Shown in pieces: positions 11,739 to 17,384 of a stretch of 64,000 bases of DNA. The first letter of the stretch is position 1, and the number at the start of each line of letters is the position of its first letter. The translations under genes and the position numbers were made by a program. This DNA is from Bacteroidia bacterium (GTDB lineage Bacteria; Bacteroidota; Bacteroidia; UKL13-3). Location of the stretch: assembly GCA_025454975.1 (NCBI GenBank), contig JALONK010000020.1, positions 1-64,000 on the forward strand, in the 5' to 3' direction. The notes under the pieces are model-generated. The model had not been told where the DNA came from. It did no database searches and worked only from the letters and a program-made list of their open reading frames with translations.

Positions 11739-12149
11739 TTATTTACACTGCTTTAATTGATTGGATACGTCATTAACGCTGATTGAATAATTAACTTTAC
11801 CGTATCTGAATAAGACAAAGTTACATACGGCAGCAATTTCTGACTCGCTTAGTTTGTTGTTTCCGGGCATCTTTAACTCATAAGAGTAATTGTTGACGGT
11901 TATTTTACCCGACATTCCATTTTTAATTATACAAGGCAGCTCTAACTGATGAGCAATTAAATAATCGGCATCCAATAAAGGAGGAATTAATTTTGCTAAA
12001 CCTTTACCATCCTCTCCATGACAATTTGCGCATGACCTGCTATATATTTCCTGCCCGTGTGCCACCTGCTGCATATTTACACGGCTTCCTTCCTGCATAC
12101 AGGATATACAAACGAATAGGTAACTTGTTATAATAATCAGGCGAAACAT
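11739..12149 (-). CDS. c-type cytochrome lipoprotein
   Basis: The 136-residue protein has a lipobox (VCISC), one CxxCH heme site (CANCH in a GEDGKG context) and a likely axial Met in KMPGNN, the signature of a class I cytochrome c. It lies two bases after the start of the SCO gene on the same strand, so the two form an operon. With SCO upstream, a role near cytochrome oxidase or another periplasmic respiratory chain is likely. Confidence 0.85.
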   Translation of the reverse strand: MFRLIIITSYLFVCISCMQEGSRVNMQQVAHGQEIYSRSCANCHGEDGKGLAKLIPPLLDADYLIAHQLELPCIIKNGMSGKITVNNYSYELKMPGNNKLSESEIAAVCNFVLFRYGKVNYSISVNDVSNQLKQCK

Positions 12150-12151
12150 CT

Positions 12152-12784
12152 TTATTTTTCTGCTACTAATGATTGTAAATCATTGATAAGTTGTTTTACC
12201 TCTTGCTCATTGGTGCCATCATAAATCCACCTTACCCGTTGTTGTTTATCAACTAAAATAAATCCACCACTGTGCACATATCCGCCGGGCTCCGACGAAT
12301 CTTGTGCTACTGATGCATAATAACCCTTTTCAGCAAGCGAATAAATTTCCTCTTTCTTTCCTGTTAAGAATAGCCATTGTTTATCATCCACTCCTAATCG
12401 GGTTGCATAATCTTTCAGTACTTCAACTGTATCAAACTCCGGATCAATTGTATGTGATAAAATTAAAAAATCAGATTTCCCTTTTATTGCTTCATATACT
12501 TGCAACATCTGCTTTTTCATTATCGGACAAATGGTGGGGCAACTTGTAAAAAAGAAGTCTGCAATAATTATTTTATTCGATAAAATTGACTCATCAACAA
12601 TCTCACCATATTGATTTACAAACGAAAATTTAGGTAAGGTTTGATAAATAGTGTCAATTATTGTTTCTCCATTTACAGTTTTGGTAACCGGAGTTCTATT
12701 ACCAAGTATAGGAAGTTTTTTAGCGTCACCACAGCCTATCCCAAGAATAACTAAACCTATCCATAATATCCTGCTTGTTTTCAT
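12152..12784 (-). CDS. SCO1/SenC/PrrC family copper chaperone
   Basis: This thioredoxin-fold protein delivers copper to the CuA site of cytochrome oxidase or acts as a thiol-disulfide factor. The copper ligands are visible: C-x3-C in TSCPTICP and the distal His in GGYVHSGG. A lipoprotein signal (LGIGCGD) anchors it in the envelope; the length of 210 residues is normal. It is followed at once by the cytochrome c lipoprotein. Confidence 0.9.
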   Translation of the reverse strand: MKTSRILWIGLVILGIGCGDAKKLPILGNRTPVTKTVNGETIIDTIYQTLPKFSFVNQYGEIVDESILSNKIIIADFFFTSCPTICPIMKKQMLQVYEAIKGKSDFLILSHTIDPEFDTVEVLKDYATRLGVDDKQWLFLTGKKEEIYSLAEKGYYASVAQDSSEPGGYVHSGGFILVDKQQRVRWIYDGTNEQEVKQLINDLQSLVAEK

Positions 12785-12908: not shown

Positions 12909-13517
12909 TTAATTGTCACGGTTAAACCTGTACCCGATAGAGAATCTAAGAAGGTCGAAACGTGTGGTTACGTTAGCAATATTAGAATGATTATTTAACT
13001 GATAATTATATCCAATTGAAGTAAACAACCCATTGTTTAATTCATATCCACCTACAACTTGAGCACCAATAACTAACGGATTGGTTTCACCGTCCTTTGT
13101 ACCAAACTTAATATCCTCTTCTTTCTCCTGGCCATTCTCATGGCTATGAAATTTACCCGATAGGGCATAACCAAAACTTGGACCTAAACCTATGAAGAAG
13201 TTGTTTTTCCTAAACATCAAGTTTATAGGTAACTCTAATGCGTAAACAGTAAAGTCATCATGGTGATCATCATGATGAATGCTAGTTCCTCTTCCACCAA
13301 AATTAAGTCCTGTTTGTAATGATAATGACGAAACAAGTTTAAATTCTGCAAATGCGCCAACGTGAAATGTATGTAAACCTTCAGCATCTTTTTCATTAGG
13401 TATATCGGGCATACTTAATGTGTAACCGGCATGTCCACCAAAACTGAATGGTAACTGCGCAGAAGCGTAGAACGTAAACAAACCTGCGACAAATAATAGT
13501 AAGATGTGTTTTTTCAT
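12909..13517 (-). CDS. Outer-membrane beta-barrel protein with His/Asp-rich loops
   Basis: The protein has a signal peptide (LFTFYASAQ) and a porin-like OmpA/OMP_b-brl barrel pattern: PFSFGGHAGYTL, SLQTGLNFGG, FIGLGPSFGYAL and a final RFSIGYRF. Two predicted loops are unusually rich in potential metal ligands, HHDDHHDD and HSHENGQEKEED. A perfect 17-bp palindrome lies 24 bp before the ATG at 13517, nearly identical to one in front of the TonB receptor, so it is probably a member of the adjacent Fur/Zur regulon. I infer a role in metal (zinc) binding or uptake at the surface. The frame extends upstream to 13538 but MKKHILLLF is the natural start. Confidence 0.7.
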   Translation of the reverse strand: MKKHILLLFVAGLFTFYASAQLPFSFGGHAGYTLSMPDIPNEKDAEGLHTFHVGAFAEFKLVSSLSLQTGLNFGGRGTSIHHDDHHDDFTVYALELPINLMFRKNNFFIGLGPSFGYALSGKFHSHENGQEKEEDIKFGTKDGETNPLVIGAQVVGGYELNNGLFTSIGYNYQLNNHSNIANVTTRFDLLRFSIGYRFNRDN

Positions 13518-13540
13518 ATGATTTATTTTTTTATGCAAAG

Positions 13541-13557
13541 ATGCAACAAAGTTGCAT
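13541..13557. promoter_or_regulatory. 17-bp palindromic operator 1 (probable Fur/Zur box)
   Basis: ATGCAACAAAGTTGCAT is a perfect 7-3-7 inverted repeat just upstream of the His-rich barrel gene. The site at 16509-16525 matches it at 16 of 17 positions on the opposite strand. A Fur-family gene is in the same cluster. Binding is inferred. Confidence 0.7.
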
Positions 13558-13575
13558 TAAAGCAAGTAAAAAAAA

Positions 13576-14121
13576 TTATTTTACAAATACAGGAAAAGTA
13601 ATGTCAATATCACTGTGGCCAACATTAGGCGAATCGTTTGAACCTTTAATTAAAGGTTTATGCATAAGCTTTACTCTTACTGCACCCGTAGCCTCCTGTA
13701 CTCCGGTTGTCCATGTACTAATAAAACCAAGTGGAAAGCCATTATTATCTTTATCCTTTTTTACAATAGCCAAATCAATATTTTGAGTGAGGTAAAAAAA
13801 TTCATGAGAGGTGCCTTGATTTTTTATGGTAGGGGCAACATCACTTGGCGGTGTTTTAGTTTTGTTAACTAATAATAAATCAACGTTATACACAGTAGAT
13901 TTTTTTAGTTTAATTGTGTCAATGGCTAGAGGAACATTACCTCCGTCACCATCAGGGTCATCAAATAAAAAGGTGTCTTTTACTCCCATTGGATCAGTAA
14001 ATATTAAACTTACTGTTGTTATGGCTTCGTGCTCATTTTCCGACCTTGGATTGTCGGTATCTTTACATGCTGCGAAACTTATTGCAGCTAAAATAAATAT
14101 CGTTAATTTTTTCATATCCAT
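13576..14121 (-). CDS. Lipoprotein of the 'type 1 periplasmic binding fold' Bacteroidota family
   Basis: The 181-residue protein has a lipobox (ISFAAC) and the family features ITTVSLIFTD, an acidic DDPDGDGG stretch and a C-terminal SDIDITFPV. Such lipoproteins occur next to TonB-dependent receptors and Fur-family regulators in Flavobacteriia and relatives; their function is not established. Here it follows the receptor by 27 bp and is probably cotranscribed from the operator-controlled promoter at 16509. The first codon could be 14121 or the ATG two codons later (14115). Confidence 0.7.
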   Translation of the reverse strand: MDMKKLTIFILAAISFAACKDTDNPRSENEHEAITTVSLIFTDPMGVKDTFLFDDPDGDGGNVPLAIDTIKLKKSTVYNVDLLLVNKTKTPPSDVAPTIKNQGTSHEFFYLTQNIDLAIVKKDKDNNGFPLGFISTWTTGVQEATGAVRVKLMHKPLIKGSNDSPNVGHSDIDITFPVFVK

Positions 14122-14148
14122 AATACATTATTATTTGATTTTTGTTTA

Positions 14149-16479
14149 TTAAAAGTGATACAATAATCTAATGGTTATATTTCTTCCGGCTTCATCATTA
14201 AAATAACGGAAGCGGTTCAGGTATTCTCTGTATCTGTCATTTAATGCATTGGTTATGCCTAAATGAATATCAATGTTTTTAATTTTAAATTGTAATCCGG
14301 CTTGTAGTAAATGATAAGTTGGCGGTGGATTTAAATAATCAATAAATACGTTTGACAATCGTTGTTGATTTATTACTGATAACAAGCTGATATTTAATAT
14401 AGGTTCAAATTTTTTAAGTCGCTTATTTGGTTGATAGCTGATGGTGGAACGAATGCGGTTACCCGGCATCTGTGATAACCAAGTTTGATTAGTAATATCA
14501 TAAGCATACACGATGGAATAGGCAGTGTGAAATTTAATAGCCCTGCTAAATTTAACAGTTGCCTTAACATCAAATCCACTTAAATTGGCGGTTGTTTGTA
14601 CATACCTAAAAGTAGGAAAAGCACCTCTTATCGTTAGGGTTGCAGGTGTATCAGGCACTAGATTAATAAAACCTGAGATATAATTATTATATACATAAAC
14701 CTCAAAGTCAAAAATGCTATCAATATTTACCAGATTAAACTGCACACCTAATTTATAAGCAACTTCATTTTTTAATTGAGCATCACCAATTTCAAAACTA
14801 CTGGTGCCATGGTGCAAGCCATTTACATACAATTCATTTATGCTTGGTGCTCGCCAAGCTAATCCGGAATTTATTAAGTATGAAACATGTTTGTTTATGG
14901 TTCTACTAAAGTTTGCGGTACCACTAAAGTTATTCCAATTCCTTTTACTACTGCTTGTATTACCATTCGAATTTCTAAATGATTCTAAGGTTCTATAATC
15001 ATATCGTATACCTAACTCAAGTTCACTTTTTTGTTTGAATTGGTAACGGCTAATAAAATACCCCGCCGCATTAAATAAGTTAAAATTAGGGATGAAAAAT
15101 CGGCTGCCATCCCATATATTCTGTTGATACATCGCTGAAATACCATACGTGTACATCCATCGCTCATGCTTATGTTCATACCAATTATCAGATTGTAAAG
15201 TGGTTAAGGTTAAATCTAATTCGGGAGCTTCGGTAATCCTTGCCAAATCATACTCTTTACGTCTGTTTATCTGCAAAGTGGTTAAACTGTAAAACAAATG
15301 CGCGGGGTCTTTATAATAGGTGTATTTTAATTGATGTGTTTGATGTCTGATTTCTTGCCTTGGCCTATCTATCTGATAGCTGAATTCGTTCTTATTAAAT
15401 AAAGGGGTTCTTCTTTGAATGGCTGCATTTAAATCGGTAAGATTACCAATTTGACTGCCTAAAAATATTCCCAGTTGGGTATTAAATACCTTACTGTTCC
15501 ATTCAACAGAATAATTAGGTTTTCGGTAACCTAATTGAATGTTACCGTTCCATTCATTGGTACCGCTGTTCCATAAATAATAATCCGGAGTGCGTTGATT
15601 TCCTCCCTTTCTCCAACTACCAGAAGCTCTCCAGCTAAATGCCGGTAATACTTTACTATTTTGTTCTAACATTAAACAATTACTAAACATGCCACCGTTA
15701 GAAAAATAACTGCTGAACAATTCTCCGGCAATTTTACCATCCACAGGAAGTGGTTTATGTTCAATAATAATTGCCCCACCAATGGCATCACTGCTATATC
15801 TTAATGCACCGGCACCTTTTATTACTGTTGTTTTATACGCTGTGAGCGGATCAATTTCCGGTGCATGATCGCTTCCCCATTGCTGCGACTCAAGTTTAGC
15901 TCCATTAGTAATAATGGGCACACGGTTACTATGCAAACCTTGTATCACCGGCTTTTGAATATTATTACCTGTTTGAATGGCACTAACTCCCGGTAAATCA
16001 TTTAATATTTCAGCTAATGTTAACCCCCTTCTCGCAAACAATAACTTGTTGTTTAGCTCTTCTTTTATTGAAACTGTATTTGCAATAAATTTATCTTTTA
16101 TAACAATTTCCCTTAGTTCATTGGTTTTATGTGGTAATACAAAGTTGCGTAATAGGTTACCATTTACCTTCACCTTTACAACCAATGGTTCACAGGTAAA
16201 ATGTGTGATGGTAAGCAAATATTCGCCTTCACATAAGTCTCTAATTACATAATAACCATTTGTATCGGTATGAACATGTGTTTTTAACCCTTTTATTTCG
16301 ATGGTAGCCATTAATATCGGCTCTCGTGTGTCGGCATCACTAATATTACCGCTTAAAGTATAATTACATGTTTGTTGTCCATTAACACGCATGTGCGTTG
16401 CACAGCAGAATAAAAATATTAAAAGGCAAACTAACTTACACTTCACAGCGCAAATTAAATAAGGTTTAGCCAAATACAC
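14149..16479 (-). CDS. TonB-dependent receptor, probable zinc/metal transporter
   Basis: This outer-membrane receptor has an N-terminal carboxypeptidase-regulatory-like domain (about 40-125), a plug domain (ILNDLPGVSAIQ, WGSDHAPEIDP, IKGAGALRYSSDAIGG) and a 22-strand barrel ending ITIRLLYHF. The DHAPEID block and the lack of a SusD partner resemble ZnuD-type metal receptors rather than glycan receptors. A 17-bp palindrome lies 30 bp upstream. No ATG precedes the signal peptide: GTG at 16479 or GTG at 16446 (VKCKLVCLLIFLFCC) must be the start. Next to it are a Fur-family regulator and two lipoproteins. Copper or iron cannot be excluded as substrate. Confidence 0.85.
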   Translation of the reverse strand: MYLAKPYLICAVKCKLVCLLIFLFCCATHMRVNGQQTCNYTLSGNISDADTREPILMATIEIKGLKTHVHTDTNGYYVIRDLCEGEYLLTITHFTCEPLVVKVKVNGNLLRNFVLPHKTNELREIVIKDKFIANTVSIKEELNNKLLFARRGLTLAEILNDLPGVSAIQTGNNIQKPVIQGLHSNRVPIITNGAKLESQQWGSDHAPEIDPLTAYKTTVIKGAGALRYSSDAIGGAIIIEHKPLPVDGKIAGELFSSYFSNGGMFSNCLMLEQNSKVLPAFSWRASGSWRKGGNQRTPDYYLWNSGTNEWNGNIQLGYRKPNYSVEWNSKVFNTQLGIFLGSQIGNLTDLNAAIQRRTPLFNKNEFSYQIDRPRQEIRHQTHQLKYTYYKDPAHLFYSLTTLQINRRKEYDLARITEAPELDLTLTTLQSDNWYEHKHERWMYTYGISAMYQQNIWDGSRFFIPNFNLFNAAGYFISRYQFKQKSELELGIRYDYRTLESFRNSNGNTSSSKRNWNNFSGTANFSRTINKHVSYLINSGLAWRAPSINELYVNGLHHGTSSFEIGDAQLKNEVAYKLGVQFNLVNIDSIFDFEVYVYNNYISGFINLVPDTPATLTIRGAFPTFRYVQTTANLSGFDVKATVKFSRAIKFHTAYSIVYAYDITNQTWLSQMPGNRIRSTISYQPNKRLKKFEPILNISLLSVINQQRLSNVFIDYLNPPPTYHLLQAGLQFKIKNIDIHLGITNALNDRYREYLNRFRYFNDEAGRNITIRLLYHF

Positions 16480-16496
16480 CTAATCTTAGGCTATAA

Positions 16497-16910
16497 TTAT
16501 TTTTTTAAATGCAACTTTGATGCATCTAATATTTGGTGCAATTGGTCGCTGATTTCATTTAATTGCCCTTGTTCTTTCATTACCAAGTAAAGGTCGGTGC
16601 TGTCATAAGGATACTCCGGCTCTAGATGATTTATTTTCCATTCCTCAAGTTTGTTTAATACTATTTTTAAATTTTGTAGGTGAATGGAAATTCTTTCAGG
16701 AATTTGCTGATTAGCTTTTGTTAAACTATCTATAGATGAAATTAATTTTATTGCCTCAGTTGACGACGGTACTAATTCTTCATATATTGCTTGGGTAATT
16801 GCTAGTTGTTCAACAACTGCTTGTTCTGTTTCGGTTTTGTTTGTATGGCAAGCGCCTAAACCGATTAATATCATACTCATTATGCTTACTGCTACTGTTG
16901 AATGATGCAT
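16497..16910 (-). CDS. Small lipoprotein, unknown function
   Basis: The 137-residue protein has a clean lipobox (LGLGAC) and a helical, coiled-coil-like body (AIYEELVPSSTEAIKLISSIDSL). It weakly recalls short Bacteroidota lipoproteins labelled 'viral A-type inclusion', with a helix pair and a tryptophan (LEEWKINH). It lies between the Fur-family regulator and the TonB receptor, and the last codons of the gene contain the receptor's operator (16509-16525). Confidence 0.6.
   Translation of the reverse strand: MHHSTVAVSIMSMILIGLGACHTNKTETEQAVVEQLAITQAIYEELVPSSTEAIKLISSIDSLTKANQQIPERISIHLQNLKIVLNKLEEWKINHLEPEYPYDSTDLYLVMKEQGQLNEISDQLHQILDASKLHLKK
16509..16525. promoter_or_regulatory. 17-bp palindromic operator 2 (probable Fur/Zur box)
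   Basis: ATGCAACTTTGATGCAT lies 30 bp before the GTG start of the TonB receptor and inside the 3' end of the preceding lipoprotein gene. It differs at one base from the reverse complement of operator 1. Two such sites in one cluster with a Fur-family gene suggest a shared regulator. Confidence 0.65.
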
Positions 16911-16952: not shown

Positions 16953-17384
16953 TTAATTTTTACTGCAAGTTTTACACATGCCGTTTACTGTAAATTGAAA
17001 TGAATTTGCTTTAAATCCACGCGGTAATTTTATGCTTGGAATTTCAATACTGTCCATACAAATGGTTTGGTTGCACGTAATACAGTTGAAATGCACGTGA
17101 TTGTCATCGTGCTTATGCGTATCGCAATCATGTTGGCATATCGCATATTTCGCTACTCCTTCATGATCAAAGGTTTTATGTATAAGCCCTTTTTCTTCGA
17201 AACTCTTTAACAAGCGATACAAGGTAACACGGTCAGAAATCTTTTTTGTTTTTTGTTCTATCTCATTATACGTTAATGCATGGTCTTTTTGCATTAATAT
17301 GGCAATTACTTTTAATCGCGCCTCTGTCACTTTTAAATCATGTTCCCTAAGCAAAATTTTTAAGGCTTCTAACTGTTTACTCAT
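16953..17384 (-). CDS. Fur-family metal-dependent repressor, probably Zur-like
   Basis: The protein has an N-terminal winged helix with the family segment RVTLYRLLKSFEEKGLIHK, then a His-rich dimerisation domain (CQHDCDTHKHDDNHVHFNC) and two structural zinc CxxC pairs (CITC and CKTC). At 143 residues it is of normal length. The neighbouring TonB receptor, His-rich barrel and paired palindromes make zinc the likeliest signal. Iron or peroxide sensing (Fur/PerR) are alternatives that the sequence alone does not exclude. It begins a minus-strand cluster with the lipoprotein 42 bp downstream. Confidence 0.85.
   Translation of the reverse strand: MSKQLEALKILLREHDLKVTEARLKVIAILMQKDHALTYNEIEQKTKKISDRVTLYRLLKSFEEKGLIHKTFDHEGVAKYAICQHDCDTHKHDDNHVHFNCITCNQTICMDSIEIPSIKLPRGFKANSFQFTVNGMCKTCSKN

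Follow-up and report, generated by a model that had tools for sequence, protein, structure and literature searches.

A 17-bp palindrome beside a Fur-family gene of a Bacteroidia bacterium as a probable Zur operator of a zinc-uptake regulon

A 2004 study (PMC545781) predicted that the palindrome ATGCAACNNNGTTGCAT serves as Zur box in the znuABC-zur operons of Desulfovibrio vulgaris and D. desulfuricans, and COG0523 genes are described as common Zur targets in a general review (PMC6103462). A literature search with six spellings of the consensus letters matched PMC545781 only, and further searches for a Zur motif in Bacteroidota found no report among the papers covered; the searchable text of two general Zur reviews (PMC6103462 and PMC8000910) does not mention Bacteroidota. 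Here we analysed two copies of this palindrome in a stretch of 64,000 nucleotides from a Bacteroidia bacterium (positions 1 to 64,000 of contig JALONK010000020.1, assembly GCA_025454975.1; hereafter the window), where both lie within 3 kb of a gene for a Zur-type Fur-family regulator (zur). Since the sites stand beside zur and recur before zinc-related genes in related bacteria, they are very probably the switch by which zinc uptake is turned on in zinc scarcity. We give a probability of roughly 0.88 to the reading that the palindromes are operators of this Zur-type repressor (16953..17384) and that they control a zinc-uptake regulon.

Operator 1 (13541..13557) is the perfect 17-bp palindrome ATGCAACAAAGTTGCAT with 0 mismatches, 23 bp before the likely ATG (13517) of a small outer-membrane beta-barrel gene. 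Operator 2 (16509..16525) is the one-mismatch copy ATGCAACTTTGATGCAT upstream of a TonB-dependent receptor gene; no strand is assigned to either site. Operator 2 is 29 bp from the first GTG of the receptor frame (16479) and about 62 bp from another GTG, at 16446, where a signal-peptide-like stretch begins. Operator 2 also overlaps the last codons of a lipoprotein open reading frame (ORF) that lies between zur and this site (16497..16910, minus strand) and has no Pfam or NCBIfam family. A sequence-only reading of this DNA had reported two nearly identical palindromes, the second within the coding end of a lipoprotein gene, and a Fur-family gene in the same cluster, all of which were recovered. 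Its distance of 24 bp before the barrel agreed to within one bp, and its 30 bp before the receptor held in the same way for the first GTG only. The "reverse orientation" that it gave to the second copy has little meaning for a palindrome, as the two sites differ in the central triplet alone (AAA and TTT).

Two matches within one mismatch were present in the window, whereas its shuffles averaged 0.05 and not one of 100 reached two. At up to three mismatches, the eight window matches were unexceptional and uninformative (shuffle mean 4.95; 10 of 100 shuffles reached eight). In a promoter scan, the dyad of site 1 was found to occupy, on the minus strand, the spacer of TTG-N19-CATCTTTG. Bacteroidota promoters have the form TTTG/TAnnTTTG, and the arrangement at site 1 is close to it. 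A dyad that fills the promoter spacer fits repression through a block of RNA polymerase. A promoter of the TTG/CATCTTTG type was not found by the same scan at site 2 or at the gene of a ZigA-like GTPase elsewhere in the genome.

The regulator gene (16953..17384, minus strand) encodes 143 aa and matched PF01475 with 42.5 bits against a cut-off of 23.1. With a profile of 14 orthologues, the best match among solved structures was E. coli Zur (4mtd, 5e-14); Fur, FurB and PerR ranked lower. The zinc ligands of E. coli Zur were taken from PMC4219657. C83 and H69 were invariant in all 14 rows and aligned with the E. coli ligands C88 and H77, while the Fur and PerR proteins aligned alongside them lacked a Cys at the position equivalent to C83. 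The four cysteines of the structural CxxC pair (C101, C104, C137, and C140) were invariant in 14/14 rows as well, as in a Zn(Cys)4 site, and H96/H98 stood two residues off E. coli Zur H96 in the alignment. The AlphaFold (AF2) model had a predicted local distance difference test (pLDDT) score of 86.8 and a Fur-like fold, with Fur-family proteins as top fold matches. These results show that the regulator has Zur-type sequence features. The genome has a second FUR-family gene (C80), a higher-scoring Fur, which lies beside purA.

The source genome (3.44 Mb) contained ten places within one mismatch of the palindrome, compared with none for the reversed pattern; scaling the window shuffles up to this genome size gives an expectation of about 2.7. 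Two were perfect (site 1 and C69:61004), site 2 was promoter-linked, one was intergenic and assigned to no target (C82:7015, 1 mismatch, 190 bp before cinA), and six lay inside ORFs. C69:61004, the sole other perfect copy in the assembly, stands 35 bp before a CobW/COG0523 GTPase gene, the product of which matched the NCBIfam ZigA model (NF038288) over its full length with 535.1 bits, under the cut-off of 600. Each of the other genomes among 58 relatives held 0 to 4 places within one mismatch. Moreover, an orthologue of the GTPase (E <= 1e-60) was present in 4 of the 58 relatives, all among the 13 that were zur-positive (P = 0.0017). In G001, G018, and G028 the two genes are a few kb apart at most, with operators nearby; in the source genome the GTPase gene has moved away from zur yet keeps its operator. 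The sequence-only reading had suggested a genome search for sites before znu, ribosomal-protein paralogue or tonB genes. The search did yield a perfect site before a COG0523/ZigA-type gene, but the znu part fell away, as no ABC-3 (znuB-type) permease is encoded in the genome and its ZIP gene carries no site; no ribosomal-protein paralogue turned up behind a site, although no search was aimed at those families.

The palindrome was then compared across the zur loci of relatives. Of 16 orthologue loci, 11 had it immediately ahead of zur (L056-L059, L062, L064, L065, L067, L068, L070, and L071, of which L067 and L068 are identical copies), and the half-sites at L070 were altered symmetrically (GCGAT / GTCGC). 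G028 has three zur copies (L065, L067, L068) in three zur-CobW neighbourhoods, two of them near-identical. A larger set comprised the best 80 relatives in a scan of genome contigs, their names being those of Bacteroidota lineages or of uncultured bacteria. Sites with at most two mismatches were present at 33 of these partly interrelated 80 loci, compared with 0, 3, 0, 1, 2, 7, and 0 for seven control palindromes, the one scoring 7 sharing core letters with the operator. By manual reading, the site preceded zur, MerC, SCO1, CobW, TonB-receptor, ZIP or DUF4625 genes at 32 of the 33 loci, with L133 as the exception. A phmmer search (E <= 1e-4), checked against Pfam for a few members, placed MerC no more than 5 kb from zur at 32, TonB receptor at 14, SCO1 at 14, and CobW at 11 of the 80 loci.

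Two of these families were arranged in a recurrent way. A MerC-family ("mercury resistance") ORF and zur, SCO1 or cobW pointed away from each other on either side of the operator (MerC-operator loci L088-L098, L101, L106, L109, L126, L132-L148, and L155), two operators separating cobW and merC in a Pedobacter laboratory strain, and the place of this ORF at the zur loci suggests a zinc-import role for MerC-family proteins. The MerC gene of the source genome (C51) was considered as a Zur target and rejected, since it lies beside a metal P-type ATPase gene and the nearby two-mismatch site is in coding sequence. At C51:12914-15584 (L029:2914-5585) the gene for a MerC-like protein with a Cys-rich tail precedes that of a metal P-type ATPase rich in His, and the two are probably a separate metal-resistance pair. 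In addition, SCO1/SenC was directly before zur in 13/80 loci by manual reading (L118, L125, L131, L132, L134, L136, L141, L142, L147, L148, L152, L153, and L164), in Chitinophagales and neighbours, and 11 of the 13 were behind a close operator.

In a survey of the class that started from the pattern, without reference to zur, a perfect match was present in 43 of 395 genomes, at 53 places by manual count compared with 5 for the reversed pattern. The regulator profile matched 35 of the 43 site-bearing genomes and 11 of 37 comparison genomes (taken in G-number order, completeness >= 90%, no perfect match), a significant difference (Fisher P = 3.1e-6; 6.2e-6 when G000 and G046 are left out). Thirty perfect sites outside the source genome were annotated (L072 and L207-L235). 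Seventeen of them (L072, L209, L210, L211, L213, L215, L220, L221, L224, and L226-L233) lay before zur, TonB receptor/lipoprotein, DUF4625, CobW or MerC genes, and at two of them, L220 and L221, a PRA-CH (HisI) gene faces the site as well; in Pseudomonas protegens, hisI2 is listed as a Zur target (PMC6103462). Seven more lay before genes for M23 peptidases (2), DUF1826 (1), and thioredoxin-reductase-like Pyr_redox_2 proteins (4, besides one in L224), families that were accepted as targets only post hoc. The extended consensus of 29 perfect sites (L207-L235) was about AAATGCAACAnTGTTGCATTT, and the comparison of these sites showed half-site letters conserved beyond mere pairing. The claim of the sequence-only reading that Zur governs a small zinc regulon in Bacteroidota through this operator thus gains support from three independent tests, namely the ZigA-type target, the zur-locus recurrence and the class-wide co-occurrence. 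A recurring palindromic operator before zinc-acquisition genes was found in the own genome, at the zur loci and in the survey.

The thioredoxin-reductase-like flavoproteins have about 300 aa and stand behind perfect operators at L212, L219, L224, L225, and L235 (5/29 sites); TIGR01292 was far below its cut-off in the four that were scored. The M23 peptidases are at L216 and L223, and the L223 protein matched ShyC/MepM-type endopeptidase models below cut-off. A cell-wall hydrolase under Zur control is reported in PMC6381278.

From the computed sites, gene neighbourhood, recurrence and co-occurrence, we inferred DNA binding by the regulator, zinc as its effector, and repression. A zinc-bound Zur dimer would occupy the dyad, at site 1 inside a Bacteroidota-type promoter, and would repress both the TonB receptor with its lipoprotein and the His-rich outer-membrane barrel, perhaps together with SCO1 and cytochrome c. 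Under zinc scarcity, zinc would leave the Cys/His sensor site and the repressor would release the DNA. Outer-membrane zinc acquisition would then be switched on, along with the ZigA-type COG0523 GTPase encoded elsewhere in the genome.

Several observations weigh against this reading. In the regulator, the fourth sensor ligand of E. coli Zur, E111, falls in an alignment gap, and Foldseek placed Fur and PerR chains above Zur with no separation of the three. A site within two mismatches was missing at 47 of the 80 zur loci, and counts over these loci are not independent, the Pedobacter and Chitinophagales loci being close relatives. None of the 21 Algoriphagus-type loci had a site, and no variant operator was found there or before the gene preceding zur. 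In the survey, 6 of the 30 annotated perfect sites had no assigned target and seven counted only by the post hoc families, and in the source genome 6 of the 10 near-matches lie well inside ORFs, probably by chance. Part of the evidence would also suit Fur-family operators at which the sensed metal is iron (heme), copper or another, in a regulon for iron or copper uptake. The structure comparison puts Fur and PerR first, SCO1 is usually tied to copper, and the receptor scored higher with the heme/hemoglobin receptor model TIGR01785 (137.6 bits), its top NCBIfam score, than with the ZnuD model NF038289 (79.2 bits), both under cut-off. We nevertheless consider another metal unlikely, because the sensor Cys of the regulator is of the Zur type, a separate and higher-scoring Fur is encoded beside purA, COG0523/ZigA-like, ZIP and HisI-type targets stand behind the same operator, and the same consensus precedes znuABC-zur in Desulfovibrio (PMC545781).

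The window zur has no operator in front and is therefore probably not autoregulated here, and 8 of the 43 genomes with a perfect site have no Zur. Both facts count against the Zur reading and could mean that zur is a mere neighbour, the sites being bound by another Fur-family protein, such as the one by purA, or by an unrelated regulator. Such a binder would hardly account for the co-occurrence of site and zur (35/43 vs 11/37), the operator before zur in most orthologue loci, or a ZigA-like GTPase that occurs in relatives only together with zur, and we judge it improbable. The iron-type Fur itself was not favoured, as it sits by purA and the lone nearby two-mismatch site falls within a different ORF, at its 5' end. 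Finally, the palindromes might be hairpins, terminators or chance inverted repeats that no regulator reads. Some sites do extend into long perfect inverted repeats: at 5 of 32 sites, G000:C69:61004 (L018) before the ZigA-like gene and L212, L219, L223, and L235, the dyad continues for at least 8 bp more per arm (null 0.6%), with flanks that are symmetrical and not conserved, their letters differing between genomes. The conserved half-site letters and the rarity of seven other palindromes at the same loci make this very improbable, and the terminator version was rejected, there being no terminator-like site at site 1 or site 2. The Zur reading thus remains preferred.

On the minus strand, the genes of the window follow the order SelO, zur, lipoprotein, site 2, TonB receptor, lipoprotein, site 1, barrel, SCO1, and cytochrome c. 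The TonB-dependent receptor, ZnuD/heme-receptor-like (14149..16479, minus strand; Plug and CarbopepD_reg_2 domains), likely starts at the GTG at 16446. Its top sequence match in the PDB was ZnuD (4rdr, 2e-10), followed by OprC copper receptors, which bears on the copper alternative above. A partner lipoprotein with no Pfam family (13576..14121, minus strand) comes directly after it. In the relative G034 (L058), zur, the TonB receptor and a 183-aa frame stand in the window order, so the receptor-lipoprotein gene order is kept, with a two-mismatch operator-like palindrome before zur; the fourth gene there encodes a PKD protein, and no barrel is present. A TonB receptor-lipoprotein pair also occurs in L155. 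The barrel gene (12909..13538, minus strand; PF13568, 48.6 bits) encodes 202 aa from the ATG at 13517, with 11 His and the segments HHDDHHDD and HSHENG. Behind it lies a SCO1/SenC gene (12152..12784, minus strand; PF02630, 95.7 bits), possibly in the same transcript; its product and the SCO1 from an operator-SCO1-zur cluster in L132 share 36% identity across 161 aa. A c-type cytochrome gene (11739..12149, minus strand; PF00034, 41.8 bits) follows SCO1 on the same strand, and its membership in the barrel operon is uncertain.

The evidence leans slightly towards a wider picture, in which one Zur operator, common with Desulfovibrio, runs a phylum-wide zinc-scarcity programme of Bacteroidota that includes MerC, SCO1, the TrxR-like flavoprotein, DUF4625, and small barrels. 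If this is true, the programme includes proteins seldom counted as zinc genes, with a zinc-import function for MerC-family membrane proteins, and MerC, SCO1, the TrxR-like flavoprotein, and the small barrels would be its possible surprises, as would one operator in distant phyla. The operator consensus suggests one recognition sequence common to Zur proteins of distant phyla. Bacteroidota are dominant in many communities of gut and soil. With a specific operator, zinc genes could be predicted across the phylum, and MerC genes, now annotated as "mercury resistance", and SCO1 genes would gain a testable zinc role.

Compared with the described systems, the regulator has E. coli Zur as its closest solved sequence relative, with the Cys4 structural site and the sensor Cys/His aligned, but it shares only about 20% identity, leaves E111 unmatched and has a different operator. 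The TonB receptor has the Zur-linked ZnuD zinc-piracy receptors as closest PDB relative (4rdr), whereas its score of 79.2 bits is far below the curated ZnuD cut-off of 950 bits. The unlinked COG0523 GTPase likewise resembles the ZigA zinc metallochaperones over its full length, yet scores 535 bits against 600. A further likeness is to the ZUR_D box of Desulfovibrio (Rodionov et al., 2004), where the same 17-bp consensus was also predicted for a Fur/Zur/PerR-family gene beside zinc-uptake genes. The comparison is by operator consensus, and the targets differ: znuABC-zur_D in Desulfovibrio; the TonB receptor, barrel and COG0523 gene, with no ABC-3 permease, in this Bacteroidota genome. The consensus letters were thus already known, and the probable Bacteroidota Zur regulon is an ordinary kind of system with an operator that is widespread in the class.

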